A stretch of 54,389 bases of DNA from Emcibacteraceae bacterium (GCA_028281625.1 JANQJN010000005.1:1-54389); one strand, 5' to 3'; positions 1 to 33,681 are shown, counted from the first letter of the stretch. Translations and numbers: made by a program. Notes: a model not told the origin generated them from the letters alone.

Positions 1-540
1 TGCGATGAACATCGCTTTGTAATCAACCATTTCCATGTGGCTGGTCGATATGGGTAAATTGGAGAATTGGACAATGGTGACAATCAACAACAGGCCAAAT
101 GAAATCACTACGAGTTCAGTTAGCCAGATCGAAATATAGCGCAATAACCCAAGCAGAATACCCACCGATAGGCCATACAAAAGAGCCTGCTCAGTAAAGG
201 ACAAGTCAAACCAACCTGTTTGGTAAAACTGCATCAGGCCGTAGTAAAAGGCGCAGATACCGCTTAAGAACGGTACTGAATATCGCCTGAGATAGAACAA
301 GCTCAGCATACATTCGGTTAGGCCAATTATTGCGACAATCTCGCCATACTGAGCCAATTGCTCATGCACATCCAAAAGACTTAGGGTGGAAAAATAATCA
401 GCGGCAATAGCTGCCAAAAATATCGGCAATAAAACAATTACCGGTAAGGCGTATTTTTGCTTATGCTGGGAAAGTTGCCCACCCATCATCAGTAAAATAG
501 CTATTGCCGCTGATATCAACCAAGCTTCGTGATTAAGCAT
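1..540 (-). CDS. Partial integral membrane protein (C-terminus beyond window start); begins MLNHEAWLISAAIAILLMMGGQLSQHKQ
   Basis: Manual reverse-strand translation gives about 180 uninterrupted codons to the window edge, with several hydrophobic segments. The ATG (538-540) overlaps the stop of the upstream CobN-like gene (ATGCTTAA). Not in the supplied ORF track. Confidence 0.75.
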   Translation of the reverse strand, partial: MLNHEAWLISAAIAILLMMGGQLSQHKQKYALPVIVLLPIFLAAIAADYFSTLSLLDVHEQLAQYGEIVAIIGLTECMLSLFYLRRYSVPFLSGICAFYYGLMQFYQTGWFDLSFTEQALLYGLSVGILLGLLRYISIWLTELVVISFGLLLIVTIVQFSNLPISTSHMEMVDYKAMFIA

Positions 541-3500
541 TTCTTCTTCTCATAACCATAAATGATATAGGGATCAGAATGAGAAAAAGCCAAAGCGGAT
601 TAAAGGAAGAACCTGACGTTGCCTCCGCACTTTGTGGTGCGGTTTGTTCAACTTGCTCCGTATTTTGAGGGGTTTCGGTTTGAGCGCTCGGCTGCACTTC
701 CTGTCTTTTCAGCACCACGCCTTGCCCCTGATTGGAGTCCGACAGTGCCGCTGTCATCTGGGTCTGGTATTCTGTAAGCAAGCTCTGATTTTGTGCAAGC
801 TGATCAACAATGAAACTCTGAAGTGCTTCGTTACCACAAGTGAAGTTTCCACAACCTGCTTCATACTCTGCAACCATTTCCGCATGAATTGTGGCCAACT
901 CCACGAGTTGTTCTTCGGAAGCCTGCCATAATCCCTTGCGGGCAGTCTCAAGCATGACACCAGACATTTCCTGAAGTGCATATGGATTTTCACGTTCAAA
1001 AAACGATTGGAGATCCAGATTCTCGCTGTCGCGAATATAAACGTCGTGAAGCCTGTTCCAAACACTATCATCAATGGCATCTGGCTTCATAACATTCCAG
1101 CCGTACGTATTTCGGAAAGTCTCAGCAAATGTTTCGGCGCTGCTGGCACCACCACTGCTGAGTTCAGAAATATAAGTTGGGTTTAGAAGCGTTGTGCGCA
1201 TCTCTGTCCATACGGCTTCGTTTAGGGTTTGTAGTTTCGCCTGATTTGCGTTTCTAAAATCATTGAAATACGCTTTGGGATCACTTCCTGTCACTTCCCG
1301 CACCGCGAGGTTAAGACCGCCCATAAATTCATAAACATGATCAAGACTCAAAGCGCCCCAGGTGTTGCTGCTTCGTGGCTGAATGACCACTTCCGTGTTT
1401 TGCAGCGCCGCAGCGAACAGGTGTGGTTGATAATCACCCCAACTTCCGCTGTCTCCATATACCGCGCCCATATTTTCAAGATATTGCCGGGCAATTTCCT
1501 GATCCGTTTGCCAGCTATCACCTTGCTCTACATTTTCCATGATCGCTGTGCCGTACGCACCATTTATTCCACCAAAACTGCGACGGTAAGAATCTTCTCT
1601 TGCCTTTTGTGGCGCAACGCCTTTTTCCAACAGGTAAACTTCAGCGTCTCTAACGCCTTTGGCAACAAAGTTCTGTTCGTAGTTGTCTTCCGCTTCTGCG
1701 GCCATCACCACTGCTTCTTCGATTAACGCGAGGCGCGACGCTGCAAGATCCCGAAGTTGTCCGGCCGATTGCAAGACTACATCAATGCGGGGTCTTCCAA
1801 GTTGCTCAAGCGGGATCAAGCGAATGCCCCCCACCCGTCCAAACGGATCACGGACCGGTTCAACACCGAGAAGGTATAAAATTTCTGCGATCGTCGCCCC
1901 CTGTGTATGAATAAACTCACTGGGCCAAAGGGTGAAGCTGATTTTTTCAGGATATTCACCCTGTTCCTGATAATGCTGCTCAAGTAATGTATCAGCCAGT
2001 CTTTTGCCAACATCCCATGCTGCGACGCTCGGGGTTGTTTCAGCGTCAATGGAATACATATTTCGGCCTGTGGGAAGTGCGGATGGGTTACGCACGGGAT
2101 CACCTCCTGTGCTTGGCTCTGTATAACCACCACCAAGTGCATTTAAGATGGCATTAAACTCATAATCGGCCCCGTTTATCAGATAACTCTGATAATCCGT
2201 CACATTTTCCATCGCCTGTTTGAAGAGCTGAACATTTTGCGCAATTTTCGCTTCATGAATGCGACTGTTATTTAGCTCTTCACCAGTTTCTTCAATCGTA
2301 TTGCTTAGAGCAACGTGAAACTCAATCGGTGACATTTGATATTGCGCAGCGATATCTCCGGATAGTTTTGTTTCTAGTTCTGGCTGATCAATAAGTGTCT
2401 TTTTATAACTTTCCAGAAAGTTCAGTCGATGCGTAAGGTGCTGCCAGTCTGTTTCAACCTCCTCGTTTCTGAGGATCACCTGTGGCAGCGCCGTCAACGC
2501 TTGTTGATACTCCGCCTCTAGTCGCGCTTCTTTTTGCGCGGCAACCCGGACGGCCAGATCATCACTTTTCACCCAGCCCAGAACTTTTTCTTTGGTTTCG
2601 GGTGTCTGCATGGCAATCACAACTTGTCGCACGTCATCCTTTTCAAGTTGCGCGAGTGCTTTTCCAATGGGCGGAATGACTTTTGCCAGAAGCTTCGCTT
2701 TTTCGGCGACTTCGGGATCCAGCGCACGTGATACATCCGTAAAGGTTTGATCATTTTCCAATCCAAGCAGAAATTCCTGGGTTTCCCCGTCGCTCATGGC
2801 CTTGGCGGTTAGGTCCATCAATTCTTCTTCAGATAGATCCCGACCCACTATTTCACCGCTTCCGTCGGACGACATCGCAATGAAACCTCTGATCATTTCG
2901 CCTTGATCGATTCCCTGGTTTTCCGCGATCCAAACTTCTGTACGCTCGAGGAGCGATGGATCAACCAGTTCAGCCATTAAGGCATCGCTTTCTGTTCCGG
3001 TAAGTCGCTGATTGATCCAGTTTTGCACCTGTTCGCGTAGTTGTTGATCAACAAGTGCACTTTCCGACTGTTCCTCCGAAATGACCTGATAACTTTGAAA
3101 CATTGCATCCAAAGTCATCAGAAGCGCTGTCTGGTCGGTTTCATCCTCCGAATAGCGGTTTCCAAGTGTATAGAGGCCTTTGGTAATCTTACTTTGGGCA
3201 AGGGTTTCCAGCCACTCGGATACAGGCGAAAGCACTTCTTCCCGCCAATTCTCAAGTTCTGCTTGTAACTGACTTTCGGAAAGCTCCAGATCCTGCGCAA
3301 GTTCCAGTGACACGATCAGTTCGTTAATTTGATCCTTAAGTTCGAGCTGAACAGTCCCCTCCGTAATCGCAAATTCTGCTATGCGATCAGAAAGAACCCT
3401 AAGTTCACTGTAAAGGCCGCTTTCAAGGAAGGGCGGTGTCAGGTGCGACAAAATCGTCGCGTAGCTACGGCGTTTTGCAATGATCGCCTCTCCCACATTA

Positions 3501-5257
3501 CTCATGGTGTAAACGTAGAAATGTGGCAGATCACCGATCAGAACATCTGCCCAATCGTATGAAGAAAGTGCGACTTGTTTTCCTTGTGTGAATTCAAGGC
3601 TGCCATGGGTGCCGTAATGCATAATGGCGTCGGCTTCAAAAACTTCCTTAAGCCACATGTAAGGGGCCATGTAACTGTGGGGTGGCGCTTTTTCAGTGCC
3701 ATGCACAAGTTTAAAGGTATCCTCACCAATACCAGGCAAAGGCTGAGGAAGGAGCGCAACATTACCATACTGAAGACGTGCTACAGCGAGATATGTTTCT
3801 CCGTCCTTTTCAGTTACCATAAAGTTTCCTGGTGCGGGGCCGTACGTATTGTTTACACGTTCACACACCCCGGCGGCGAGGCTGTTCTCGCACCACTCTG
3901 CATATTGCGCGGCCGGAATAAGGGCGGGATTTCCTTCATTATAAAACTGCTCCAATAGTCCTTCAGCATAAGGGGCCATAACGGTTCCCTGAAGGTTTAT
4001 ATCGGCCTTGAACTCTTCAATATCATCTGGTAGCTCACCAAGAAAATATCCATCTTTTTTTAGCGCATGAAGCGTGTTAAAGAGGCTTGGTATAACTTCC
4101 ATATTCCCCGCAACAAGACTATTTTTTCCCGGCCCGCGGAAATAAACGATTGCAAGTTTTTTGCTCAGGTTGTCCTGATCTTTCAGAGCGAACCAGCGTT
4201 CCAGCACATCGGTAAATGTGTTCAGACGGTCCGGGATCGCCTTAAAAATTTCAAGTTGATTATCATCGCTAAATTGGGCATTGATCGCATATGGGAGGGT
4301 TGCACCGTCAATCTCCGGCATGACAATATTCATTGTGAGAAGATTTGACGTGTACCCTTGTGGGTCGTCGAGCCATTTTTCATAATTTTGAAAAACGGAT
4401 ACCGGTGCAAGGAGTGGAATATTCTGCTGTTTTAACCACTGAATGGTGCTGCTGCCACTTCCCAGCTGCAAACGGCCATGTGGCATCATCAGAACAGCAT
4501 CCGGGTCCACTTCCTGAATGAGTTCAAGCCTGCGATCAAAGCTGGCGATTGGATAAACCTGCATTCCCCGACCTTCAAGTTCATTTATAAGGCTATCCAA
4601 ATGATCCCGGTTGGCATTAAATGGGCCGGGAACACTGGTCATTAAGGCGATTTTTTTGCCTTCAGGGCTAAATTGCGGCAGCGTTTTATAATATTCCAGA
4701 TAGTTCGCCACTGTGCTGAACATTTTACTCTCGTCGAAATGGAAGAGCACGTCCATATCGATTTCTTGAGGTTCTTGCGCCGCTTCAACACCAAATGTTT
4801 TTTCGTCCAGTTTAACACGGCTATAGCGGATTAGCTGTGTGTAATTAAATTCGCCGCCATAGCGGAAATAGTCCTGAACACGCGTACGTTCCGACGCGTA
4901 TAGATTTGTCACATCGATTTGTGGATTTGTAGAAGCTTCAACAAGAATTCTTGTGCCGTTTTCGCCTGCTTCATTGAAGGCGGCTACTTGTTCGGGAGTA
5001 AGGGATAACCCTCTACCAAAAATATAGATAACATCATAATCCCCATAAGAATCTGTAGCGTTTTTGTCCAGCTGATCAATAGTGATCCAGTCGCTATCAA
5101 GTGACCCGATAATGCGGGCAGCTTGAAACCCTGCATAGTTCACCAGTGCGACTTTTGTGGTGGAAATCCAGTTGAAATAGCTCCAAACTGCAGTTGATAC
5201 CAATGCTATGGATAGAAACCAGGTTAAAAACTTCTTGTTAAATATGGACCTCAGCAT
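533..5257 (-). CDS. CobN/HmuS-like cobaltochelatase-family protein, membrane anchored and probably periplasmic
   Basis: 1574 aa; CobN core motif MHYGTHGSLEFTQGK; N-terminal hydrophobic signal/anchor (FLTWFLSIALVSTAVWSYF) and C-terminal TM plus basic tail (FNPLWLFLILIPISFMVMRRRNA). Confidence 0.9.
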   Translation of the reverse strand: MLRSIFNKKFLTWFLSIALVSTAVWSYFNWISTTKVALVNYAGFQAARIIGSLDSDWITIDQLDKNATDSYGDYDVIYIFGRGLSLTPEQVAAFNEAGENGTRILVEASTNPQIDVTNLYASERTRVQDYFRYGGEFNYTQLIRYSRVKLDEKTFGVEAAQEPQEIDMDVLFHFDESKMFSTVANYLEYYKTLPQFSPEGKKIALMTSVPGPFNANRDHLDSLINELEGRGMQVYPIASFDRRLELIQEVDPDAVLMMPHGRLQLGSGSSTIQWLKQQNIPLLAPVSVFQNYEKWLDDPQGYTSNLLTMNIVMPEIDGATLPYAINAQFSDDNQLEIFKAIPDRLNTFTDVLERWFALKDQDNLSKKLAIVYFRGPGKNSLVAGNMEVIPSLFNTLHALKKDGYFLGELPDDIEEFKADINLQGTVMAPYAEGLLEQFYNEGNPALIPAAQYAEWCENSLAAGVCERVNNTYGPAPGNFMVTEKDGETYLAVARLQYGNVALLPQPLPGIGEDTFKLVHGTEKAPPHSYMAPYMWLKEVFEADAIMHYGTHGSLEFTQGKQVALSSYDWADVLIGDLPHFYVYTMSNVGEAIIAKRRSYATILSHLTPPFLESGLYSELRVLSDRIAEFAITEGTVQLELKDQINELIVSLELAQDLELSESQLQAELENWREEVLSPVSEWLETLAQSKITKGLYTLGNRYSEDETDQTALLMTLDAMFQSYQVISEEQSESALVDQQLREQVQNWINQRLTGTESDALMAELVDPSLLERTEVWIAENQGIDQGEMIRGFIAMSSDGSGEIVGRDLSEEELMDLTAKAMSDGETQEFLLGLENDQTFTDVSRALDPEVAEKAKLLAKVIPPIGKALAQLEKDDVRQVVIAMQTPETKEKVLGWVKSDDLAVRVAAQKEARLEAEYQQALTALPQVILRNEEVETDWQHLTHRLNFLESYKKTLIDQPELETKLSGDIAAQYQMSPIEFHVALSNTIEETGEELNNSRIHEAKIAQNVQLFKQAMENVTDYQSYLINGADYEFNAILNALGGGYTEPSTGGDPVRNPSALPTGRNMYSIDAETTPSVAAWDVGKRLADTLLEQHYQEQGEYPEKISFTLWPSEFIHTQGATIAEILYLLGVEPVRDPFGRVGGIRLIPLEQLGRPRIDVVLQSAGQLRDLAASRLALIEEAVVMAAEAEDNYEQNFVAKGVRDAEVYLLEKGVAPQKAREDSYRRSFGGINGAYGTAIMENVEQGDSWQTDQEIARQYLENMGAVYGDSGSWGDYQPHLFAAALQNTEVVIQPRSSNTWGALSLDHVYEFMGGLNLAVREVTGSDPKAYFNDFRNANQAKLQTLNEAVWTEMRTTLLNPTYISELSSGGASSAETFAETFRNTYGWNVMKPDAIDDSVWNRLHDVYIRDSENLDLQSFFERENPYALQEMSGVMLETARKGLWQASEEQLVELATIHAEMVAEYEAGCGNFTCGNEALQSFIVDQLAQNQSLLTEYQTQMTAALSDSNQGQGVVLKRQEVQPSAQTETPQNTEQVEQTAPQSAEATSGSSFNPLWLFLILIPISFMVMRRRNA

Positions 5258-5283
5258 CTTATGCCTCTCCCTTATTTGTAATG

Positions 5284-5307
5284 GCGGAGCGAATAAACCC
5301 GCTCCGC
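5284..5307. other. Intercistronic hairpin (GCGGAGCG-aataaacc-CGCTCCGC)
   Basis: Perfect 8-bp inverted repeat between the TonB receptor stop and the CobN-like start. Confidence 0.7.
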
Positions 5308-5324
5308 TTTGATTTCAGTTACCT

Positions 5325-7610
5325 CTAAAAACGCACACCTACGGAAGCGGCAAAGCTTCTGCCAGGTGCTGCCGATGCATCAAGGTTGCCGGCTGCGTTG
5401 CTGCCTTTTGAATGAGCGCCCCAATATTTCTTGTTGGTGAGGTTATAAACAGACGCCATCACATTAAGATTTTCATTGAGCGCCCAGCGGATGGAAACGT
5501 CCTGGACACTATATGCAGGGGGTTCAAACGCCGGTAAGGGTTGACCTTGTTGAGTGAGTGGCTCCGCGTCATCGGCTGTACCAGCACCTCTCAAATGCCA
5601 ATGAAATTGCCATTCTTCAGCGGGGCTTAGGCTGATGCCCAAAACGTAACTATGCGGTGGTACGCTGTTTAGGCCGGTATCTGTAATTTTGTTCTTACCA
5701 TCAATGAAACTGGCTGCCATATTCAGGCTACCGCTCCACCCATCAGGAAGTACGCTGTCAATGAAGATCTTACTGCTGAATTCAATACCTTTAATCCGGA
5801 CTTCTTCGATATTTTGATATTGAATTTGGCGAATGGCCGTCGGACCGACAAAGATTGGTGGTTGATTCCTAAAGCCTATGGTTTGGCTGTCGATGAAATT
5901 GTCATAATTATTGTGGTACGCCGCAATTTCTGCACTTATGACATCATTGCGAAGTCTCAGCCCTACTTCAAAACCGTCACTGGTTTCCGCGGACAGATCA
6001 TTATTTGGAATGACTTCATGAGGAACACCAGGTACCGGTATCAGAATAGAGCGGCTGATATATTGCTCGGCCACTGGTGGTGATCTGAATCCAGTAGCGT
6101 AGTTGGCAAACAGAGAAAGACTATCTGTCGCGTCAAAAACCATTCCGATATGCGGTGAAAACGCTTCATCGGAGTATGTCGCTGGTACAGCATTGGCGAT
6201 ATTGAAGTTTTGATATTGTTGGTCTACCTCAGGTTTGTTCTTAAAGTAGTCATAACGAATACCCGCTGTGATATGCAAATTATCAAGCAGATCATAATAA
6301 TCCTGCAGGAAAATACCCACTTGTGTCACCTTTGCATCCGGGAAAGTCTTTCCTGGATACTGAAAGCCATTGATCACATCAGTGCTGGTTCCAGCGATCA
6401 CATCTGTTTGAAGTCGATCAACCGGCCTTGTAACAGAGCGATGCGTGAAATCGGAACCAATAAGGAAGTTATGATCACCGAACTTTTTCTGCAGGGTAAA
6501 ACTGGCGCCAAATTGCTTTTGCTCAAATTCTTCCCGCTCTTCATCAAGCATTTCTGACGCTGGGATTGGAGGAAAGACCGACCCAGGATTTTCAGTGGTT
6601 TCAAGTTCATATTGTTTGTAATTGGAATATTGGTAGCTTACCTGCCACTGCAGCTTATCGGCAAATGACAAGTCTGCTATTTCATGGGTGAGGGCAAATC
6701 GCATATTTTCCGATTTGTCCTCAGCTTCTGAACTGGTGATAGAGGTACCAGGTGGCCCGGCGATTGGTCCAATATTTGTGTTTAACTGAATATCTGAATC
6801 CTGGCGGAAATAGTCAGCCAGGATGTTAAAGGTTTGATTATCCCCACTCTTTACTTGCCATTTAAATAACACGTTATTGGCGTTGCCGTCCTTTGGATTA
6901 GGGGCAAAATCGCTGTTGATGTCCGTTTCTTCGAATTGTTGGTGCTGTACTTGGATCATGGCATGGCTGCTGCCAATTTCACCAGCGACTGTGCCGCCAA
7001 TCCTGTAGCGGTTGTCTTCACCAAAATAACCTGCGTTGGCTGACAAATAGGGTGCGCCCCCATTTGAATTCACAAGTGTCTCAGGTTCAGCTGACTTGAT
7101 AAGCACAACGCCGCCAAGAGCGTTACTTCCGTAAAGCGCTGAAGCGGGTCCTTTTAAAACTTCGATTTGTTGCAATTGAAATGGATCGAAGTTTCCCCGT
7201 CCCTGTGACGCACCGGCTGAACCAAAACCTTCCGGCATAAGGACGCCATCTTTGACCATCAATACCCGGTTACCACCGATGCCGCGAATAATGATATTGG
7301 CATCACCGTGACGATCCCCGGTTCTGTCAACTGTTATACCTGGCTCGTAACGCAGTAAATCGCTTAATTTATTCGGAGCCAGTTGTTCAATTTCCTGCTT
7401 ATCCAATACCGCGATACTGGCGGGTACCTGGTTTAGTTCGAGTACCATTCTTGGCGCGGTCACCTGAATAACATCAGTTGTATCATCCTGGGCAAACGCT
7501 GCTGAAGATGTAATGATCGATCCCGTTAGAAGGGCAGTTTTCAAACTAAACCTTATCAATCCCTTTTTTGAAATGCCATTATGGGCATAAGTGTTTGTTT
7601 TTTCACACAT
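5325..7610 (-). CDS. TonB-dependent outer-membrane receptor, heme/hemoglobin-receptor-like
   Basis: 761 aa; plug domain (IIIRGIGGNRVLMVKDG, EVLKGPASALYGSNALGGVV); GFRSPP...PHEV..PNNDL resembles the FRAP/His/NPNL signature of heme receptors; ends in an aromatic residue (GVRF). Confidence 0.9.
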   Translation of the reverse strand: MCEKTNTYAHNGISKKGLIRFSLKTALLTGSIITSSAAFAQDDTTDVIQVTAPRMVLELNQVPASIAVLDKQEIEQLAPNKLSDLLRYEPGITVDRTGDRHGDANIIIRGIGGNRVLMVKDGVLMPEGFGSAGASQGRGNFDPFQLQQIEVLKGPASALYGSNALGGVVLIKSAEPETLVNSNGGAPYLSANAGYFGEDNRYRIGGTVAGEIGSSHAMIQVQHQQFEETDINSDFAPNPKDGNANNVLFKWQVKSGDNQTFNILADYFRQDSDIQLNTNIGPIAGPPGTSITSSEAEDKSENMRFALTHEIADLSFADKLQWQVSYQYSNYKQYELETTENPGSVFPPIPASEMLDEEREEFEQKQFGASFTLQKKFGDHNFLIGSDFTHRSVTRPVDRLQTDVIAGTSTDVINGFQYPGKTFPDAKVTQVGIFLQDYYDLLDNLHITAGIRYDYFKNKPEVDQQYQNFNIANAVPATYSDEAFSPHIGMVFDATDSLSLFANYATGFRSPPVAEQYISRSILIPVPGVPHEVIPNNDLSAETSDGFEVGLRLRNDVISAEIAAYHNNYDNFIDSQTIGFRNQPPIFVGPTAIRQIQYQNIEEVRIKGIEFSSKIFIDSVLPDGWSGSLNMAASFIDGKNKITDTGLNSVPPHSYVLGISLSPAEEWQFHWHLRGAGTADDAEPLTQQGQPLPAFEPPAYSVQDVSIRWALNENLNVMASVYNLTNKKYWGAHSKGSNAAGNLDASAAPGRSFAASVGVRF

Positions 7611-7790: not shown

Positions 7791-8171
7791 CTATAAAAGC
7801 AGGGACGGAGGAGCGCGTTTTTGCGAAATACTACCACTAAAACTTCCCAGAGAGAAATTGGTAAATGGCAACTTAGTGGTGAGTAAATGGTCGCTAGCAA
7901 CCAAAGAAAAATATAGGTCACAGAAACCATAGATAGATTTTTCATATGCATGGAACAGCTCACAACTATATTCAGTTTGATGCTCATCCTGATGGTCATG
8001 ACCGTGATCATGGTCGTGATGATGGTGGTGGTGATGGTGACCATCTTCATAATGAATTGTTGCATGGTGAAAAGTCGCAATCTGCATGCAAACACATGCA
8101 GAAAATGCGAGAAGTAATAGTCTCTTTATTATACTTTTGTTTCTGAGCACCAAACCCCCCAGAGAATCCAT
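7791..8171 (-). CDS. Small His-rich secreted/membrane protein, putative zinc chaperone-like
   Basis: 126 aa; hydrophobic N-terminus; HHHHHHHHDHDHGHDH run; C-terminal RAPPSLLL tail typical of small metal-related proteins near zinc/copper uptake loci. Confidence 0.7.
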   Translation of the reverse strand: MDSLGGLVLRNKSIIKRLLLLAFSACVCMQIATFHHATIHYEDGHHHHHHHHDHDHGHDHQDEHQTEYSCELFHAYEKSIYGFCDLYFSLVASDHLLTTKLPFTNFSLGSFSGSISQKRAPPSLLL

Positions 8172-8193: not shown

Positions 8194-8212
8194 AACGTTA
8201 TAGTATAACATT
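8194..8212. promoter_or_regulatory. Putative Zur box
   Basis: AACGTTATAGTATAACATT: perfect 13-bp palindrome GTTATA-G-TATAAC (8197-8209) with further matching flanks; close to the remembered Zur consensus GAAATGTTATANTATAACATTTC; lies about 26 bp upstream of the His-rich ORF start. Confidence 0.75.
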
Positions 8213-8381: not shown

Positions 8382-8431
8382 CCTGCCTCCGAAGGCAGAG
8401 GCCGTGAGTTCGAATCTCGCCGGGTGCGCCA
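8382..8431 (+). pseudogene. 3' half of a tRNA (tRNA-Arg(CCG)-like), anticodon arm through CCA; no 5' half
   Basis: CCTGCCTCCGAAGGCAGAGGCCGTGAGTTCGAATCTCGCCGGGTGCGCCA: T arm GTGAG-TTCGAAT-CTCGC, 5-nt variable region, encoded CCA. No D arm or 5' acceptor strand upstream. Confidence 0.7.
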
Positions 8432-22093: not shown

Positions 22094-24823
22094 TTAGTCG
22101 TTGACCCAAACTGTCCAACCGTTGAGCCAGTTGCCAGCTTCATTCGGAACCGCACCAATGTGTGTGGTTGCATCGAACCAGGCATCCAGTGTTGTTGGAT
22201 CTGTTACGGTCACACCATTTTCGGTTGCACCGTTAATGAAGGCGTGCGAACCACCGGTTGGCGCAACCAGTGTGCTTGCACCAGTTCCATTATTGGCTTG
22301 ACCGTTAAACCATGCCGCCAGGTCGCCATCTTCAGCGTCTGAAGCAAAGCTTGTTGTACAGGACATGTAGGTTGAGGTGATGGTGATACCATCGGCACCG
22401 TCACGTCTTGCGTATGTCGCGGCCTGGTCAAGGTCCAGACATTGATCAAGGAAGTTTGCAACAACTGTGTTGGTGATTTTGGCACCGGTACCTTCACGAA
22501 GGAGCATACCGATGTCGCCGCGCGTATCACCACCTACCAGCGTAATATTCGATAGCAGGGGTTGCGCATATGGTGTTGCATCGTTGTCGCTTCCGTTGTT
22601 ATCCGCTTCGATACCCTGGTCAGTAGCAGCCTGGTTATCGTTTTGAACAACGACGGCATGTTGAATTGCACCGCGCCATCCTTTGGTCCAGTCGATACTG
22701 TCATCGTCCGCACCTGTAACAACCAAATGCTTTACGCGAACTGTACCGCCGAAGAATTCAACGCCGTCGTCAGCTCCGTTATGAACCTGCAGATAATCAA
22801 CTTCTGTACCGCGGCCAACACCTTCAAAGGCGATGCCGTTAAGTTCATCATCATCCGTGATTGGGTTACCTGCATATTTCACAACGACATAGTACATTTG
22901 ACCACTGTCGTCGTCATCGTCGTTACCGCCGTAAAGGCCGCTATCGCCTTCACCTGCTGCTTCACAGATGCCAACGCCACAGCCGTTGATGGTTGCGCGA
23001 CCATTGATCACCAGACCGCCCCATAGAGATGTATCTGTATCAAGGTTACGTGTCGCATCGTTGGTTGCTGTCATTGTGATTGGCGCATCTGCCGTACCGT
23101 TAGCAAAGATTTTCGAACCGCGTGAGATCACGAGGAAGGAAAGTGGATCTTCACCTGCAATGGTTACACCTGCGTCAATAAACAGGTTACCTGCTTCGGC
23201 GTCAGCAATTGGGTTATTCACATCACCGCCAAGGTCTTCACCGATAACCACTTTTCCGCGAAGGAAGTAGTCAAGGCCTGCCGCCAGGCGGATGTTACCA
23301 GTATATTCACCTTGAAGGATACAGCCACCGGCACCGTTTGATGTTGAGCCTACTGGGCAAACTGGGTTCGGGTTAATGGCATATGACCATCCGAGTGTCC
23401 AGTTATCCGCAGCGTCATCTGACTCTACAGCACCAATATATGTTGTTGCGTCAAACCAAGGGTCAATTGCGTTTACGTCAGTTGCTGTTACACCATTTTC
23501 AGTAACACCGTTGATAAAACCAGAAAGCGTTGAAGGCTGAGCCGAGTTATTGGCTTGTCCAAGGAACCAGGCCTCAAGGTCGCCATCTTCCGCGTCAGAA
23601 GCAAATGGAACATCACAGCCCAGTAATGTTGATTGGATTGTGATACCATCTGCACCGTCACGACGTGTGTATGTTGCTGTCTGATCGAGGTCGAGACAGA
23701 AATCCAAGAAATCTGTTACAACCGTATTGTAAATATTGGCACCTGTACCTTCACGAAGAAGCATACCAATGTCACCGCGTGTTTCGCCGCCAATGATTGT
23801 TACATTTGACAAAGTTGGCTGTGCAAATGGTGTAGCATCGTTGTCACTGCCATTGTTATCGGCTTCAATACCTTGGTCGGAAGCTGATTGGTTGTCATTT
23901 TGCATGATAAGAACGTGCTGGGCACGACCGCGCCAGCCTTTTGTCCAGTCAAGACTGTCATCGTCAGCACCAGTAATGATCAAATGTTTGATGTCAGCTG
24001 TACCACCGAAGAACTCAACACCATCGTCCGCACCGTTATGAACGTGAATGAAGTCTAGCGTTGTGCCGCGACCAACACCTTCAAAGGCGATACCATTAAG
24101 CTCGTCATCATCTGTGATTGGGTTACCAGCGTAGCGAACCTGAATGTAACGCATTGTACCTGAGCTATCATTATCATCTATACCGCCGTACATTCCGCTA
24201 TCACCTTCACCAGCAGCTTCACAAATACCTGCGTCACAACCGTTAATGGTTGCTAGACCGTTTACAACGATACCGCCCCATTCGGATGTAAATGCTTCTG
24301 AAAGAGCGTTGGCATTGGCATTAAAACCGCGCTCAATGTCTGCAGCAGAGGTAAAGATAATCGGCTGACCAACATTGCCGTCAGCATCAATTGTTGAACC
24401 ACGTGCAATTACAAGGAATGAATTTTCATCAAGACCGGCAATTGTTGTGCCAGGCTGAATTTCAAGATTTACACGTGTACCGCCAGTACCGTCAGAAAGT
24501 GTTTCCTGACCAATTGTCACTTTACCATTCAATAGGTAAGTGTTTCCGGCTGTTAGCGTAAGATTTTGTGTAACTGTACCTGAAATTTGGCAAGCACTAC
24601 CTGTTCCCAGCGCCACTTCCGTGGTTCCAGCAGGACAGTCAACAACGACGCCACCGCCACCACCACCGCCGCTGCCACCGCCGCTGCCGGTGCCAGGATT
24701 ATCACCGGTTTCACCTTTCGAGGCAAGCTCGGTATTTTTGTCTGCACAACTTGTAAAAGCTGAAAGAGAAACTGCTGCGAAAATAATCAGAAGCAGTCTT
24801 TTAACATTATTGAGATTTGTCAT
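22094..24823 (-). CDS. Large secreted lipoprotein with tandem internal duplication, ElpS-like T2SS substrate candidate
   Basis: 909 aa; lipoprotein signal (LSAFTSCADKN), Gly/Ser linker GTGSGGGSGGGGGGG, two about 420-aa repeats sharing GNPITDDDELNGIAFEGVGRGT and GIEADNNGSDNDATP. Confidence 0.8.
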   Translation of the reverse strand: MTNLNNVKRLLLIIFAAVSLSAFTSCADKNTELASKGETGDNPGTGSGGGSGGGGGGGVVVDCPAGTTEVALGTGSACQISGTVTQNLTLTAGNTYLLNGKVTIGQETLSDGTGGTRVNLEIQPGTTIAGLDENSFLVIARGSTIDADGNVGQPIIFTSAADIERGFNANANALSEAFTSEWGGIVVNGLATINGCDAGICEAAGEGDSGMYGGIDDNDSSGTMRYIQVRYAGNPITDDDELNGIAFEGVGRGTTLDFIHVHNGADDGVEFFGGTADIKHLIITGADDDSLDWTKGWRGRAQHVLIMQNDNQSASDQGIEADNNGSDNDATPFAQPTLSNVTIIGGETRGDIGMLLREGTGANIYNTVVTDFLDFCLDLDQTATYTRRDGADGITIQSTLLGCDVPFASDAEDGDLEAWFLGQANNSAQPSTLSGFINGVTENGVTATDVNAIDPWFDATTYIGAVESDDAADNWTLGWSYAINPNPVCPVGSTSNGAGGCILQGEYTGNIRLAAGLDYFLRGKVVIGEDLGGDVNNPIADAEAGNLFIDAGVTIAGEDPLSFLVISRGSKIFANGTADAPITMTATNDATRNLDTDTSLWGGLVINGRATINGCGVGICEAAGEGDSGLYGGNDDDDDSGQMYYVVVKYAGNPITDDDELNGIAFEGVGRGTEVDYLQVHNGADDGVEFFGGTVRVKHLVVTGADDDSIDWTKGWRGAIQHAVVVQNDNQAATDQGIEADNNGSDNDATPYAQPLLSNITLVGGDTRGDIGMLLREGTGAKITNTVVANFLDQCLDLDQAATYARRDGADGITITSTYMSCTTSFASDAEDGDLAAWFNGQANNGTGASTLVAPTGGSHAFINGATENGVTVTDPTTLDAWFDATTHIGAVPNEAGNWLNGWTVWVND
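22097..24645 (-). repeat. Tandem coding duplication (unit A about 23365-24645, unit B about 22097-23364)
   Basis: Two homologous blocks seen in protein and DNA; boundaries approximate. Confidence 0.85.
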
Positions 24824-27049: not shown

Positions 27050-27958
27050 TTACCGATTACCCAATATCTGTACGGAATCGCTTTGTGCACTCTTGTCCGG
27101 TACGACGTAAACCTTAACCCCATTTAAAATTTCTGACATTTCTTCGAGATATATGCGTCGCTCCATCGTTTCAGGCGACTTCTGCCATTCTTCCGCAAGG
27201 CTGGTAAAACGAACCACCTCGCCCCTTGCTGTTTCAAGCCGGCTAAACTGATCTGCCAGTCCCTCATTTCTAATCCGGGTGGCTTCAGCTTCTGCGTCAA
27301 ACAACATTTGGTTTTTCTGGGTTTCTGCCTGTTCTATTCTTCTGTAGCGATCGGAGTTGGCATTTTGAACCAACTGGAACGCGTCCGCAACACCATCATT
27401 ATTTGGCGGCGAAAGAGACTTAACAATAACATCCTGAACTTGAATTCCGGTATTGGCACCATCCAGTTCATCTTGCATGGCCTGCCGGATGCGGCTTCCA
27501 AGCAGCTGGCGCCCTGTTGTCAGAATATCGTCAACACTTTGTTCCACCAAAGATCTTGTCAACATCTTTTGTGCCACGTAATCAAGGAATACTTCCGGAT
27601 TATCATGAGACGTTTCATAGAGATCCAGCTGCGTTATCGTATATTGAATATCAACCTGGATTTCCACCAGACTGGCACCGCCCGTCATCCATAAGTTTCT
27701 CGCACCAAACGTGAAGCTCTCAAGTGTGGGAGCGGTATCTCCCACCGAAAGAATCAGGTTTGCTTTGGTTGTTCTTACTGTTTGACTGCCAAATGGATAC
27801 GGCGCATTCCAATGAATACCTGCTTCGACATTACGGTCAATCATTTTACCGAATATGTAGGTGACAGCGGTTTCTTCTGGTTCCACCGCATAAAAGCCGG
27901 AGACGGCATAGAGCGGTAGCAGCAATAATCCTAAGCCATATAGAAGTTTCTTAATCAT
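27050..27958 (-). CDS. SPFH/band 7 protein, HflK-like
   Basis: 302 aa; N-terminal TM; FYAVEPEETAVTYIFGKMIDRNVEAGIHWNAPYPFGS; VQDVIVKSLSPP; coiled-coil tail. Confidence 0.85.
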   Translation of the reverse strand: MIKKLLYGLGLLLLPLYAVSGFYAVEPEETAVTYIFGKMIDRNVEAGIHWNAPYPFGSQTVRTTKANLILSVGDTAPTLESFTFGARNLWMTGGASLVEIQVDIQYTITQLDLYETSHDNPEVFLDYVAQKMLTRSLVEQSVDDILTTGRQLLGSRIRQAMQDELDGANTGIQVQDVIVKSLSPPNNDGVADAFQLVQNANSDRYRRIEQAETQKNQMLFDAEAEATRIRNEGLADQFSRLETARGEVVRFTSLAEEWQKSPETMERRIYLEEMSEILNGVKVYVVPDKSAQSDSVQILGNR

Positions 27959-28881
27959 TATCTATCCGCCGATCTGTTTTCAAGAGGTGGATTTGTTAGA
28001 AGATCAAGCAGTGGGGAATCTTCCGGCAGTATCAATGTTGTATCAAGATCAATGATGCTTCCATACACTTCCAAAGTTCGCAAAAATTCGTAAAAATCTT
28101 CTTTATCTTTATAGGCTTCCGCGTAAATGCGTGCTGCTTCTGCTTCTGCTTCACCACGTGCGATCTCCGCTTCAGCTTCGGCTGAAGCAATTATCTCAGC
28201 GCTTTGTCTGCTTGCGTCCGCAAGGATTTTTCTAGCTTCTGCATCCCCTTCTGAGCGGTAAGATTTCGCAATACGCTCACGCTCCGCACGCATACGGGCA
28301 TACACACTGATCAAGTTCTGTGCAGGGAAATTGAATTTTGAAACTCCAATGTTGGTAAATTCAATACCATAATCGCGACTGGCCAGCGTGGAGGCCTCAT
28401 TAAAGATCGATTGTTCCATTGCGGAAATATTTTCAGCTGCCATCATGTCACTGAGCTGACTAATGTCGGCAGGGATATAATCCGTGAATGGTTTTTGCCC
28501 TAGCGCTGCACCAAAAAGGGACTTCACCAGATTTTCTATACGAGCTTCCGCTGCATCTCTGGTTCTAAGTGCCGTCAGGAACTTTTCCGGATCCACAATC
28601 CGCCATGTCAGGAAGGAAGAAACAATGATATTCTTTTTGTCTGACGTTAAAAATTCTTCTTCTGGTATAATCTGATACATATTGCGTTTATCGAAACGGA
28701 CAACCCTTTCAAAGGGCATAGGAAGCTTCATTCTGAGACCGGGCTCATCATGCACTGCAACCGTACGACCGAAACGTGTCACAATACTAAATTCCGCTTC
28801 ATTGACCACGAAAAAGGACGTCATCAAGTAAGAGACTATTAATATTGAAATTACGACAATTGGGGCTTTTTTCTTCATCAT
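27958..28881 (-). CDS. SPFH/band 7 protein, HflC-like (start trimmed to MMKKKAPI)
   Basis: FFVVNEAEFSIVTRFGRTVAVHDEPGLRMKLPMPFERV; AEAEAEIARGEAEAEAARIYAEAYKDKEDFYEFLRTLEVY typical of HflC; SD-like GGGAAGAG. Confidence 0.88.
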   Translation of the reverse strand: MMKKKAPIVVISILIVSYLMTSFFVVNEAEFSIVTRFGRTVAVHDEPGLRMKLPMPFERVVRFDKRNMYQIIPEEEFLTSDKKNIIVSSFLTWRIVDPEKFLTALRTRDAAEARIENLVKSLFGAALGQKPFTDYIPADISQLSDMMAAENISAMEQSIFNEASTLASRDYGIEFTNIGVSKFNFPAQNLISVYARMRAERERIAKSYRSEGDAEARKILADASRQSAEIIASAEAEAEIARGEAEAEAARIYAEAYKDKEDFYEFLRTLEVYGSIIDLDTTLILPEDSPLLDLLTNPPLENRSADR

Positions 28882-28897
28882 TTTAAATCTCTTCCCT

Positions 28898-31039
28898 TTA
28901 ATCCTTAAATTTGAACCTGACGACATCTTCTGCATTCGGGTCGAGCCATAAATCAACTCCGTCCGAATTCTGTAGTCCATTAAGATAAAGTGTTGGCAGG
29001 ATGAGCCATCTTTCCTGAGCCTCTAACTGCAGTCTTTTTTCTGTCAGATATGGATAGCTTTGATGCACGTCTGCAAGTGGTTTAAAGGCTGCTGCCTGCC
29101 CTCTTGCAAATGCTAATTCTCGTGCGGCGCTTACGCTGGCGTTTGCTTTAACGGTTTCAGAATTACCTCGGGCTTCATTAAGCATGGAAATAGCGTCACC
29201 ATCAGCCAAAAACAGTGATCTTTGCATATCCTCGAGCGAGCTAGCTACGTCACGAAATGCGTCATGCACACGGTTCGGGGCGTGGACATATACGAGTCTG
29301 GCATCAAGAACATTAAAACCCTGATCAAGCGCATTTACTTTATTTTTTAATTGATCCCGAAACCGTTGCTCAAGTCCGCCACGCTCCGTGGTAAATACTG
29401 AATCAATAGGAAGCTGCACGGCTTCAGACACAAGAACCTGCCGCGCTAGATCCATCAACAGGTTGTCATTTTTTTCGCTGTAAAAATGGTAATTATAAAT
29501 ATCGTCAATTTCATATGTTATTACCGATTTTATAAGTAGAACATTTTCATCTGCTGTTAGATACGTGTTTGAATTTTCGTATGAATTTACTCTTTCCCCG
29601 CTCACTGTGAAATTACCGAGGCTTTCATCGATTGAAATTTGCCGAACATTGCCGGTGTCAATAACCACCGCTTCAGTAATGGGGGATGGCAGTCTAAAAT
29701 ACAGGCCAGGTGATAATTCACTGTCCACCACTTCACCGAACCTGAGAATCATGCCCTGACTTCCAGGTGGGACCTGCACAGTATAATAGGGGTAAAGCGC
29801 AATAATTACGATCGCGGCCGTCGCGCGCATCAAATTCTTTTGATGCGATTTTAAAAAACCACCAGCAAGAGAAGCTTGCATTTTTAAGTCGTTAACCGGA
29901 TCAATATAACTTTTACGTCCAAAACTGACGATAACCAATCCTACAAAGATAACGGTAGCTGCCCATTTCGCGACCATCCAAAATGTGCTATCGGGGCTAT
30001 TCAAAGCAACGATCGTGTCGGCTCTGACAATATCTGCAGCAAAATAATCAAGCAAAAGACCGGCACTAATAGCAACTACAATAATTGATGATAGATAAGC
30101 CCACATCACTCTGTAACCAAGCATCTTGCCAACAATATTTATAGTCGCGATACTGGTCGCCGGACCTGTTAGAAGATAAACAAGCGCAGCCCCTGGCGAC
30201 AATCCGCTGATAATCAAACCAGCTGCGACAGGTGTAGACATGCTGGCACAAGTGTATAGCGGCACACTAATCAAAACCATCAGAAGCATGGAAAGAATGC
30301 TGGCGAGCAGCCCATCTCCAAAATTAAAAAAGTTATCGGGTACAAGAGCAAGCATTATCCCCGTAATCACCAGCCCTGCCACAATCCAGAAAGCAATGTC
30401 ATCAATCATTGGGCCAAAACCATAATTGAAAACGCCTTTTGCCTTTTGCTTCCAGCCTACGTTTTTGGAGGCCGCCAGTTCTCCTTCATCGTGATGATGG
30501 TGATGGTGCTCATGGTCGTGATCGTGATCGTGATGATGATGGTGGTGGGTTAGCTCTTCCAGTTCTTTTTGGTCTTCTTCTGAAAGCTCGTCATCATCCT
30601 TCTCATCACGTGTCAGAAAAGCACAGGAAAGGCCAGCTGCAATTGCACTTACCAGGGCCGCAAACGGTCTATAGATGGCCATGAAAGGTCCAAGTAGTCC
30701 GTAAGAGACAATTACCGAATCCACACCTGTTTCCGGCACGGATACAATGAAGGAAGCTGTAGCTGGTTTTGAAGCACCTTTTTTGCGCAGTGTTGCTGCT
30801 GCTGGAAGCACGCTGCAAGAACATAATGGTAAGGGGGCACCCAGAATTGTGGCCCAGAAAATTCCCTTAATTCCCTTTTGGCCAAGATTCTTGGTGATCA
30901 GTTTCATGGGAATAAATTCATGCAAAACGCCCGCAAAAAACAGACCAAATAGAATGAATATTGAGCTTTGATAAAATATTCCTACTGTCTCAGTAACAAT
31001 GCTGACAGCAATATCATATAAGGCTAATAAAAACTCCAT
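28898..31039 (-). CDS. Fusion of COG0701/SO_0444-type metal permease (His-rich loop) and SPFH domain
   Basis: 713 aa in one frame: permease (GAPLPLCSCSVLPAAATLRKKGASKPATASFIVSVPETGVDS), loop THHHHHHDHDHDHEHHHHHHD, then a TM and SPFH (YPYYTVQVPPGSQGMILRFGEVVDSELSPGLYFRLPSPI). Confidence 0.9.
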   Translation of the reverse strand: MEFLLALYDIAVSIVTETVGIFYQSSIFILFGLFFAGVLHEFIPMKLITKNLGQKGIKGIFWATILGAPLPLCSCSVLPAAATLRKKGASKPATASFIVSVPETGVDSVIVSYGLLGPFMAIYRPFAALVSAIAAGLSCAFLTRDEKDDDELSEEDQKELEELTHHHHHHDHDHDHEHHHHHHDEGELAASKNVGWKQKAKGVFNYGFGPMIDDIAFWIVAGLVITGIMLALVPDNFFNFGDGLLASILSMLLMVLISVPLYTCASMSTPVAAGLIISGLSPGAALVYLLTGPATSIATINIVGKMLGYRVMWAYLSSIIVVAISAGLLLDYFAADIVRADTIVALNSPDSTFWMVAKWAATVIFVGLVIVSFGRKSYIDPVNDLKMQASLAGGFLKSHQKNLMRATAAIVIIALYPYYTVQVPPGSQGMILRFGEVVDSELSPGLYFRLPSPITEAVVIDTGNVRQISIDESLGNFTVSGERVNSYENSNTYLTADENVLLIKSVITYEIDDIYNYHFYSEKNDNLLMDLARQVLVSEAVQLPIDSVFTTERGGLEQRFRDQLKNKVNALDQGFNVLDARLVYVHAPNRVHDAFRDVASSLEDMQRSLFLADGDAISMLNEARGNSETVKANASVSAARELAFARGQAAAFKPLADVHQSYPYLTEKRLQLEAQERWLILPTLYLNGLQNSDGVDLWLDPNAEDVVRFKFKD

Positions 31040-31380
31040 GGTTCTCCCTCTAAACTAAGCGCTATTAAAGTAAGCGCGTGGCAATACAGCCATCCACTCC
31101 CCCAAAACAAATAAATCTCGGAAAGTGGGATAATAAACAGTTATTTCTAAACAATAAAGTCTTTATGACATAATATTTTGCTTAATCCTGCTTACCAATC
31201 GTTTCTCGAAATTTTTGTGCCTGAATTGCAACGATTAATTTCTTCATTGATATATTATAACGCCTTACATTTTTGTCAATTTATTAGCGCAAGTGGTGGC
31301 TGTCTCGTTTTCAACAGGGACCGATGGAGCATCGCTGACGCAAATAAACTTGCAATCAGTTTAAAAAATGTCCCGGAAAC

Positions 31381-33681
31381 TCACAGCGCCAATGTTATTT
31401 TTTGTCCCTTGACGCGCGAACAACAGGTCATCATTCTATCGCCCTGCTTTCTTTCCTTACTGGTAAGAACCTGATCCCTGTGATCTATATCCCCCTCAAT
31501 CACTTCGATTTCGCAAGTCCCGCAAATACCTTCCTTGCAATCATTGGGTACATCCATTCCTTTTGCAAGTAACGCCTCTAGGACCGTCTGATTCGCACCG
31601 ACTTTGATTGTCAGTTCAGAATCCTGCAAATAAGCATCAAAGCTATGTTCCTCTTCAGCATTAAGCGTTGCAACGTTGGAATTGAAATACTCGTAATGAA
31701 GAGCTCCCTCTGGCCAATTTTCAGCTAAGAACTTGAGTTCATGGAGCAACCGCTCTGGACCACAAGCATAAACCTGCTGGCCTTGGACCAAATCAGCGGT
31801 TAGTTCCGAAAGTTGCATTCTCATGCCGTCTTCGCCTGAATAAAAAGAAAGGCAATCACCATGCTGTTCTTTTAGTCGTTTTGCAAACGTCATGGAACTA
31901 AGGGACCGCCCTGCATAATGAACAGTGTAATCCTTGCCAAGCTCCCTCAATCTATCAGCCATGGCAATGATTGGTGTGATGCCAATACCACCCGCAATTA
32001 GCATGTATTTTTCAGCGGTTTCATCTAGCTTAAAATGATTTTTTGGCCCAACGATCTGAACTTTGTCACCGACAGCAAGTTTTTCATGAAAATGAAGCGA
32101 ACCGCCACGACCTTCCGTTTCTTTTAAAACCGCAATTTTGTATTGGTCGCCGGCTTCTGAAGACCCACAAAGCGAATATTTGCGGCTAAACTCCCCGTGA
32201 ATGAAATCGATATGAGCGCCCGCCGTCCAATTAGGAAGGCTTTTACCATTTAAACTGGCAATTGTAATTTCAATCACATCTTTTGTTTTTGATGAGATCT
32301 CCTCAACCCGTACCGTTCGATAAAGCTCGTCTTTGGACGGTGGCCCAATTTTAAAATGTGTGTGCTCAGTAAGAATTTCAGGGTCGGCCTTTTCAGGGTT
32401 TTTGTCTGGATCCCAAGTGACCCAAAGCTCTGAAGCTCCGCGAAAGGATGTATTGGGCAAGAACTCAAACTTTTGATCAGTTTTAAGTTCCATATGAGGG
32501 AGTCTCTTTACAAACTCTTCGAGGAAGATCCTCATTTCCATACGACCTATGTTCTTGCCCATACATTGGTGACTGCCGTAACCAAAGGTAAGATGATCCG
32601 TTGTATTGTCGCGGTAAAGATCAATTTCATCAGGGTTTTCAAAATGCCGTTCGTCATGATTGGCCGATGCCGTTACCATCAGAAGCCGAGCATCCTTGGG
32701 GACTTTTACATCACCAATCTGTGTGTCACGTGTTGCCTGCCGCCTCCAGGCAACAACTGATCCTTCAAAGCGCAAACATTCTTCAACAGCATTGGGTATG
32801 AGCTTCGGGTTTTCACATATTTCCTTCCATTTCTCCTTATTACCGAGAAGAACACGAAACATATTACTGGTTGCGTTGGAAGTGGTTTCATGAGCCGCAG
32901 CGAGGATCGCCATCATCATTGAGTTCAAGTAAGACTCTGTCACGATCTCCGGATACTTTAGGTGCTGGCGTACCGTAAGATACATCCACCCTTCACCCTC
33001 AGGATTTTCTTTCATCTTCTTTATGATATCGACAGCAACCGTCCAAAACTTGCCCACCGAATGAGCAACATCAATTTGTTCTTCCGGTGTTGGCCTTCCC
33101 CAGGTATTTACCGTGTGCGCAACCGAAAAACTTCTGATTTTCTCACTATCCTCATCGGGTACACCTAAAAAATGAAGCGCCACCATTAAGGGTATTTCCT
33201 TAAACATTTCAGCGACGAGATCCGCTTCGCCCTTTTCAATGAAGCGGTCCATATATTCACGGGTAAGAGCACGCACGGCAGGCTGATGTTTTTCAAGTTC
33301 TTCAGGATCAAAGCTGTCCATTAAAACGCGGCGCCGCTCCATATGGGCTGGTTCATCCTCATTTACCAATGTGCGGTTCATCGCGTAACCATAACTTTTG
33401 AGGACCTCCATCGCTTCGGGTGGTGCCGGTGTTATTTTTTCGAGCGCAATGCAGGGAGAAAATAAGATATTGTCACGAAAAATTGCTTTTACGTCATCGT
33501 ATCTGCTGACAATCCAATATCCTAAACGAGGACTATAAAATACTGGCTCCTGTTCCCTGGCCCATTTCAGCGCCTCTGCGGGGTTGACATGATAGTCGCC
33601 TTCGAACGCATCAAATTTTCGTGCACCATGGGAAATGGGACATCCGGTTGGTGTTAGCTTTTGATGATCTTGATTACTCAT
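31381..33681 (-). CDS. Self-sufficient cytochrome P450 (P450 + FMN/NADH reductase + 2Fe-2S ferredoxin), CYP116B-like
   Basis: Heme motif FGYGSHQCMG, AAHETTSN I-helix, reductase domain GGIGITPI, C-terminal CKEGICGTCEIEVIEG...C ferredoxin. ATGA overlap with the IclR gene. Confidence 0.92.
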   Translation of the reverse strand: MSNQDHQKLTPTGCPISHGARKFDAFEGDYHVNPAEALKWAREQEPVFYSPRLGYWIVSRYDDVKAIFRDNILFSPCIALEKITPAPPEAMEVLKSYGYAMNRTLVNEDEPAHMERRRVLMDSFDPEELEKHQPAVRALTREYMDRFIEKGEADLVAEMFKEIPLMVALHFLGVPDEDSEKIRSFSVAHTVNTWGRPTPEEQIDVAHSVGKFWTVAVDIIKKMKENPEGEGWMYLTVRQHLKYPEIVTESYLNSMMMAILAAAHETTSNATSNMFRVLLGNKEKWKEICENPKLIPNAVEECLRFEGSVVAWRRQATRDTQIGDVKVPKDARLLMVTASANHDERHFENPDEIDLYRDNTTDHLTFGYGSHQCMGKNIGRMEMRIFLEEFVKRLPHMELKTDQKFEFLPNTSFRGASELWVTWDPDKNPEKADPEILTEHTHFKIGPPSKDELYRTVRVEEISSKTKDVIEITIASLNGKSLPNWTAGAHIDFIHGEFSRKYSLCGSSEAGDQYKIAVLKETEGRGGSLHFHEKLAVGDKVQIVGPKNHFKLDETAEKYMLIAGGIGITPIIAMADRLRELGKDYTVHYAGRSLSSMTFAKRLKEQHGDCLSFYSGEDGMRMQLSELTADLVQGQQVYACGPERLLHELKFLAENWPEGALHYEYFNSNVATLNAEEEHSFDAYLQDSELTIKVGANQTVLEALLAKGMDVPNDCKEGICGTCEIEVIEGDIDHRDQVLTSKERKQGDRMMTCCSRVKGQKITLAL

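Follow-up and report, generated by a model that had tools for sequence, protein, structure and literature searches.

HmuS of Bacteroides thetaiotaomicron (PDB 9d26, 9p4s) is a membrane-bound, NADH-dependent heme dechelatase of gut bacteria that turns heme into protoporphyrin IX and Fe(II), and its authors proposed that NADH reduces the heme bound at a Met/His-ligated site 1 (PMC12583661). For the Porphyromonas protein, a periplasmic location has been argued (PMC13227078). Direct demonstration that HmuS is a biological dechelatase dates only from 2025 and is confined to heme iron in Bacteroidota. CobN (of CobNST) and ChlH/BchH (of Mg-chelatase) share the superfamily fold and an HxGTHG motif with the protein described here but are cytoplasmic, have AAA+ subunit partners, and are separate from it in our tree. 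In Pseudomonas aeruginosa, the PA1922-PA1925 operon encodes a TonB-dependent receptor and a CobN-like protein; it rises more than 100-fold under zinc depletion, its control by Zur was established by RNA-seq and EMSA, and its function is given as undetermined, with cobalt or zinc import as guesses (PMC4542158, PMC8531726, PMC11761036). This operon, which we liken to ours by its published description rather than by the sequence of PA1923, is the nearest published case with the same regulation, and the literature we found contains no paper that ties it to HmuS.

The window analyzed here, 54,389 nucleotides long, is one whole contig (C180) of the 3.9-Mb draft genome of an Emcibacteraceae bacterium, a marine-type alphaproteobacterium. 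We propose, with about even confidence, that it carries an operon for periplasmic metal salvage, controlled by Zur and centered on an HmuS-type dechelatase, with Zn(II) as the most likely metal. The proposal is built on kinship with HmuS, retention of the catalytic residues, the distinct sites of a subfamily, gene order, and a Zur-type box that recurs at related loci; secretion, Zur binding, ligand, metal, and reaction are what we infer from these observations.

Operon layout and genomic setting

A first-pass annotation had described a CobN homologue paired with a heme-type receptor at 533-7610, and both genes (533-5257 and 5325-7610, minus strand) were confirmed, the former by a full-length match to PF02514 and the latter by passing both TIGR heme-receptor models. 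The unit is larger than first described. Read along the minus strand, a Zur-type palindrome and the gene of a His-rich protein stand upstream of the receptor and CobN-like genes, and a membrane-protein gene stands downstream (Table 1). The order receptor, HmuS, membrane protein is shared with B. thetaiotaomicron, but HmuY is missing here. The hmuS-like and membrane-protein genes overlap by 8 bases, and gaps of 67 and 180 bases separate the receptor gene from the hmuS-like and His-rich genes, respectively; a pattern scan of the coding strand found no terminator in the 180-base gap. The operon genes are likely to form one transcript.

Table 1. Features of the operon and of its junction with the type II secretion cluster
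Feature	Coordinates	Strand	Evidence or remark
HmuT-position multi-pass membrane protein, 5' part (180 codons)	1..540	-	cut by contig end
HmuS-type class I chelatase relative, Arg/Met subtype, 1574 aa, probably anchored at both ends	533..5257	-	PF02514, HmuS 9d26 1127 bits, tree, catalytic residues, AlphaFold model of residues 27-725
Domain IV insertion region (residues 719-1001), predicted all-helical	2255..3103	-	stands where Bacteroides HmuS has methionine-rich insertion
TonB-dependent outer-membrane receptor, heme/hemoglobin type, HmuR position, 761 aa	5325..7610	-	TIGR01786, TIGR01785, PhuR match, motif alignment
Small His-rich, probably exported protein, 126 aa, HHHHHHHHDHDHGHDH	7791..8171	-	first gene after Zur-type box
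Perfect Zur-type palindrome GTTATAGTATAAC, inside ACGTTATAGTATAACAT	8197..8209	.	palindrome scan and shuffles
tRNA-Arg(CCG) gene, 3' fragment, at junction with genus-conserved T2SS cluster	8394..8431	+	likely attachment-site remnant

The truncated membrane protein had no match in a Pfam search and clustered by BLAST with the product of the gene that immediately follows the HmuS-like one in L033, L065, L073, L077, L087, and L089; of these relatives, L033, L065, L073, and L089 carry T, U, and V genes. HmuU and HmuV partners were not seen at the window locus, whose contig ends inside the HmuT-position gene, and DUF2149 was not found in the assembly of this genome. The conserved order among related loci is receptor, HmuY (at some loci), HmuS-like protein, membrane protein, MotA/ExbB-like protein, and DUF2149. 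A profile search with the His-rich protein returned only a sub-cut-off match to ZrgA, driven by histidine.

Its distribution and its junction suggest that the operon was most likely acquired horizontally on a mobile island. An HmuS-like gene was found in none of the 13 other same-genus genomes searched, and the receptor likewise in none of those searched. The neighboring T2SS genes are 72-86% identical to those of the genus at GspD, and the T2SS cluster is syntenic in three genomes, with a different far side in each. The tRNA-Arg(CCG) fragment lies exactly at the junction between this cluster and the operon, in an orientation that puts the operon on the element's side, and a similar fragment occupies the same junction in another same-genus genome (L145). 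A further tRNA-Arg(CCG) fragment is present on contig C110, and the intact tRNA-Arg, on contig C116, precedes a gene whose sequence looks by eye like that of an integrase.

Elsewhere in the window, the product of the gene at 31381-33693 (770 aa) joins a cytochrome P450 to a ferredoxin-reductase-like region bearing a 2Fe-2S domain; among the genes clustered with it are a sulfatase and others that look catabolic. The gene at 22094-24823 encodes a 909-residue exported protein with two similar halves (DDDELNGIAFEGVGRGT... repeated) and adjoins a TonB-dependent receptor gene.

Family membership, membrane anchors, and catalytic residues

The 1574-residue CobN-like protein is the only PF02514 member in the genome and matches Pfam CobN-Mg_chel (PF02514) across the full profile (E 2e-299). 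First, its score fell short of the cut-off for all NCBIfam CobN and BchH models, including the BchH/ChlH equivalog TIGR02025 (621 bits vs a cut-off of 829), and its bit scores against solved structures were 1127 for HmuS (9d26), 407 for ChlH, and 340 for CobN; identity to B. thetaiotaomicron HmuS was 45% over the aligned parts. Second, the structure was predicted in two separate pieces, the N-terminal half (residues 27-725) and the domain IV insertion, and the model of the N-terminal half (pLDDT 77) had 9d26 as its top fold match (E 7e-53), with CobN third. Third, in a tree of 91 proteins built from the C-terminal half only, with head and neck sites left out, 82 HmuS-type proteins, including B. 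thetaiotaomicron HmuS and the window protein, formed one side of a branch with SH-aLRT 99, and BchH, CobN, and a second secreted CobN-like class formed the other. Within its side, the window protein grouped with Pseudoalteromonas inside a marine gammaproteobacterial clade of 12 (SH-aLRT 100). These scores, the fold match, the tree, and the catalytic residues described below make the protein almost certainly kin of HmuS; a phylogeny against CobN, ChlH, and HmuS was a check that the first-pass annotation had proposed. Identity as CobN or ChlH was rejected on the sub-cut-off NCBIfam scores, the best structure match, and the tree. The wider meaning is that many genes annotated cobN are misnamed.

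With 45% identity and no HmuY, the window protein lies below the working set of the HmuS paper (at least 50% identity and a complete hmuYRSTUV operon). Because the Met-79/His-254 site and the Met-rich insertion are not kept, it is not HmuS proper by that paper's definition, and its sequence is that of a sister subtype that should work likewise.

Anchors at both ends, a feature of B. thetaiotaomicron HmuS, had also been claimed. At the C terminus a membrane helix is clear at residues 1551-1569, ahead of RRR, and this half of the claim stood; the N-terminal segment (FLTWFLSIALVSTAVWSYF, after RSIFNKK) is an anchor by eye and falls just below the hydropathy threshold of 1.6 for membrane segments. 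Of 74 relatives, 57 exceeded this threshold at their N-terminal end and 70 at their C-terminal end, and positive charges lie on the cytoplasmic side of both terminal segments. This pattern points to an enzyme whose body would be periplasmic and anchored in the inner membrane.

Every demetallation residue that the HmuS paper names is present: His-538, Glu-577, Asp-1208, His-1209, and Glu-1212 of HmuS correspond to His551, Glu590, Asp1306, His1307, and Glu1310 of the window protein, and His-506 in loop I corresponds to His519. The HFG(T/A)HG signature that contains His-538 reads HYGTHG, the sole change being F535 to Y, the LSLDHxxEFMGG signature that contains His-1209 and Glu-1212 reads LSLDHVYEFMGG, and HGR at 254-256 is also common to both proteins. 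The axial pair of heme site 1, by contrast with HmuS, is broken, with Arg82 in place of Met-79 and His260 kept at His-254; Gln-299 is replaced by Met309.

In a survey of 79 related loci from named genomes, columns 79 and 299 sorted the family into three types: Met/Gln, which covers Bacteroidales hmu operons and others; His/Met, confined to a subset of Bacteroidales; and Arg/Met, which is that of the window and forms a distinct subfamily. All 37 Arg/Met members have Arg for Met-79 and have Met or Leu for Gln-299, and H254, H506, H538, E577, D1208, H1209, and E1212 (HmuS numbering) are kept in 37 of 37 rows. These differences provide site swaps for asking why a second heme site is needed for iron. 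That the Arg/Met type arose more than once was considered and set aside: independent pairs were too few, and a single clade was not rejected (p-AU 0.595). Planctomycete loci L058 and L059 (Kuenenia) and L067 (Aquisphaera) have Arg at 79 and keep Gln at 299, between the two main types, and a COG0523 gene lies near the Kuenenia HmuS-like loci. The Vicinamibacterales loci L079 and L095 each carry two HmuS-like copies; in the second, Leu and not Met stands in place of Gln-299, and the domain IV insertion is short.

The helical insertion that replaces the Met-rich one of B. thetaiotaomicron HmuS has 8 Met in 283 residues and was modelled as an ordered, all-helix bundle (pLDDT 88); a PDB fold search with this model gave no significant match, and no function was read from the insertion. 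Its length in the Arg/Met subtype runs from 42 to about 300 residues. Because the nearest relative, L065, has just 66 residues at this place, this part is dispensable.

The Zur-type box and zinc-gene neighborhood

The palindrome ahead of the operon occurred 0 times in 100 shuffles of the window. A Zur site established by EMSA at P. aeruginosa zrmABCD reads GCGTTATAGTATATCAT (PMC8456098), and 15 of its 17 bases are equal in the window box. The window genome has 5 perfect sites, some of them upstream of genes with no obvious link to zinc, and because the reversed control was the commoner at up to one mismatch genome-wide (26 vs 17), the box is weak on its own without the comparative data. Among proteobacterial Arg/Met loci, 10 of 18 had an operon Zur-type box, defined as a palindrome with at most 2 mismatches within 300 bases of the operon start, and the expectation, taken from the other genes at these loci, was 0.49. 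Two Zur-type palindromes without mismatch are present in L065.

Genes for ZnuA, COG0523 GTPases, and MerC are recurrent neighbors of Arg/Met loci, and in Comamonas, Pollutimonas, Castellaniella, and Rubrivivax a Fur-family gene adjoins the receptor. In the flanks fetched, a Fur/Zur-family, COG0523, MerC, or ZnuA gene was present at 18 of 35 Arg/Met loci, and thus missing at about half, vs 1 of 32 loci of other types (Fisher p 7e-6); for Bacteroidota alone the counts were 6 of 9 and 1 of 27 (p 3e-4). Flavodoxin or PepSY reductase-like genes showed the opposite distribution (10 of 32 classical loci vs 1 of 35 Arg/Met loci, p 0.002), as did hemerythrin genes (6 of 32 classical loci vs 0 Arg/Met loci). 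The Arg/Met subfamily differs from HmuS in having a Zur-type box and zinc neighbors, not iron or redox ones. These tests ignore descent, and because the Arg/Met rows fit a single clade, the zinc association is to be read as that of one lineage and not as many independent events. The zinc genes involved differ between phyla, which suggests that the neighborhood was assembled repeatedly.

The same genome encodes zur-znuCB on contig C126. With the perfect box in the window and the boxes and zinc genes at related loci, Zur control of the window operon, which the first-pass annotation had put forward, is highly probable. On contig C10 (L115), a Zur-like gene has as neighbors a second His-rich exported protein, a box with one mismatch, and a divergent receptor; BLASTP gave no support for homology between the His-rich proteins of C10 and the window.

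In a separate cluster in the window (27050-31039), an ArsP-type permease that has a long His run is fused to an SPFH/Band 7 domain; HflK- and HflC-like Band 7 genes come next, and a one-mismatch Zur-type palindrome lies upstream (31249-31261). The arrangement recalls PA2434-PA2439 of P. aeruginosa, the Zur-linked hmtA-HflKC locus (PMC4542158).

Ligand, released metal, and alternative explanations

With 379 bits for TIGR01786 and 329 bits for TIGR01785, the receptor passed both NCBIfam heme/hemoglobin cut-offs, and its nearest solved structure is the heme receptor PhuR. With PhuR and HmuR receptors it shares the receptor family, the FRxP motif, the apical His, and the NxxL motif; the motif GFRSPP...GVPHEVIPNNDL begins at residue 507, and the apical His ahead of N-x-x-L is kept in nearly all aligned receptors. 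The heme-receptor likeness first seen by eye therefore held up. Unlike PhuR, the window receptor has no His at the QTHRNY plug-motif position; it has one in RHGDANI, close to where the Porphyromonas-type receptor L105 has its KHG His. HmuY is a porphyrin-binding hemophore. Because HmuY is kept in the Bacteroidota Arg/Met loci (9 of 9) and the receptor scores above the heme-receptor cut-offs, a tetrapyrrole would be the likeliest ligand.

This tetrapyrrole need not be heme b. Predicted heme-propionate positions are changed in most Arg/Met members (S1014 to Pro or Ala in 36 of 37, S1067 to Ala in 29 of 37), the window protein having Pro for Ser-1014 and Ala for Ser-1067, and Q1198, a propionate-contact residue, is also altered; for this reason the ligand may not be protoporphyrin. 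Trp-1202 and Ser-1199 in the central cleft and both His-carboxylate pairs are kept.

We propose that in zinc shortage Zur would leave the palindrome at 8197-8209 and that the His-rich protein, the receptor, the HmuS-like enzyme, and the downstream membrane protein would then be made. The receptor would bring a metallated tetrapyrrole across the outer membrane, and the enzyme, tethered to the inner membrane and with a periplasmic body, would grip this ligand through His551 and His1307 and protonate the ring, driving out a divalent metal, most likely Zn(II), for capture and import by the His-rich protein and ZnuABC. Periplasmic demetallation of an imported chelate is the probable activity, and the chances that the released metal is zinc are roughly balanced. 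More specifically, and tentatively, this zinc-starvation branch of HmuS might strip zinc in the periplasm from scavenged Zn-tetrapyrroles, such as Zn-porphyrins or Zn-substituted chlorophyll derivatives. Heme-bound iron must be reduced for release; a redox-inactive metal would need no reduction, which would fit the loss of the Met-79 ligand and of the flavodoxin/PepSY neighbors. In the literature searched, there was no description of zinc-tetrapyrroles as a nutritional zinc source or of enzymatic zinc dechelation, and we know of no Arg/Met member with a known activity or ligand. If the proposal is true, a widespread Zur-wired sister type extends enzymatic demetallation to zinc nutrition and hints at the role of Zur-controlled 'CobN' operons, possibly including PA1922-PA1925, open since 2015.

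Several of the same observations would suit a heme-iron dechelatase like Bacteroides HmuS, with heme as substrate and iron as the metal, placed under Zur for regulatory reasons such as iron-zinc cross-talk: the receptor scores, its apical His and NxxL motif, HmuY in the Bacteroidota members, the identical set of proposed demetallation residues, and His-254 of site 1. We consider this explanation unlikely in light of the invariant Arg at position 79 and Met/Leu at 299, the altered propionate contacts, and zinc-gene neighbors in place of the flavodoxin/PepSY genes of classical loci.

The ligand could instead be a non-tetrapyrrole metal chelate (zincophore), or a cobalt or nickel corrinoid that yields a substitute for zinc. 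The receptor and HmuY are of the porphyrin-binding kind, and the retained Trp-1202, Ser-1199, and His-carboxylate pairs of the cleft argue in the same direction, making such a ligand quite improbable, even with the changes at S1014, S1067, and Q1198 in its favor. Two further points are in its favor: P. aeruginosa defective in zinc uptake raises both PA1922-1925 expression and cellular cobalt (PMC4542158), and the B12 salvage genes of a same-family genome (L132) have among them, beside a receptor, a secreted CobN-like protein of a different kind.

It is very doubtful that the protein is a non-catalytic binder that passes on a metal complex in a receptor or sensor role, as invariance of the catalytic pairs in all rows counted would be unexpected for a mere binder, although the heme site 1 cleft resembles periplasmic binding proteins (PMC12583661) and the domain IV insertion varies widely in length within the subtype.

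An ordinary cytoplasmic cobaltochelatase subunit CobN, as automatic annotation would have it (Pfam CobN-Mg_chel), is exceedingly improbable given the scores below every NCBIfam CobN/BchH cut-off, the place in the HmuS clade, and predicted terminal membrane segments that speak against a cytoplasmic subunit; moreover, because CbiC was not found in the window genome and CobT, which it encodes, is equally present in relatives without a CobN-like gene, no corrin pathway calls for CobN. The first-pass annotation had held that clustering with cytoplasmic cobaltochelatases, together with cobS/cobT and no secretion, would count against its reading. CobT was present in 20 of 20 relatives searched, including same-genus genomes without a CobN-like gene, and was for this reason rejected as a sign of a cobaltochelatase; the protein itself clusters with HmuS.

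Our placing of the Arg/Met type as a zinc-linked sister of HmuS is independent of PA1923. PA1923 itself was sought, and a plasmid search returned Bacteroidota records only. It could be either of the HmuS type or of the other secreted CobN-like class (NCBIfam NF004644), because same-family genomes carry that class with a receptor, ExbB, and DUF2149 (L133). Proteins of this second class stand beside TonB receptors at L131-L134 (genomes G014, G015, and G016), with NF004644 as their nearest NCBIfam model; L133 has ExbB-like and DUF2149-like genes, and L132 lies within a B12 salvage cluster.
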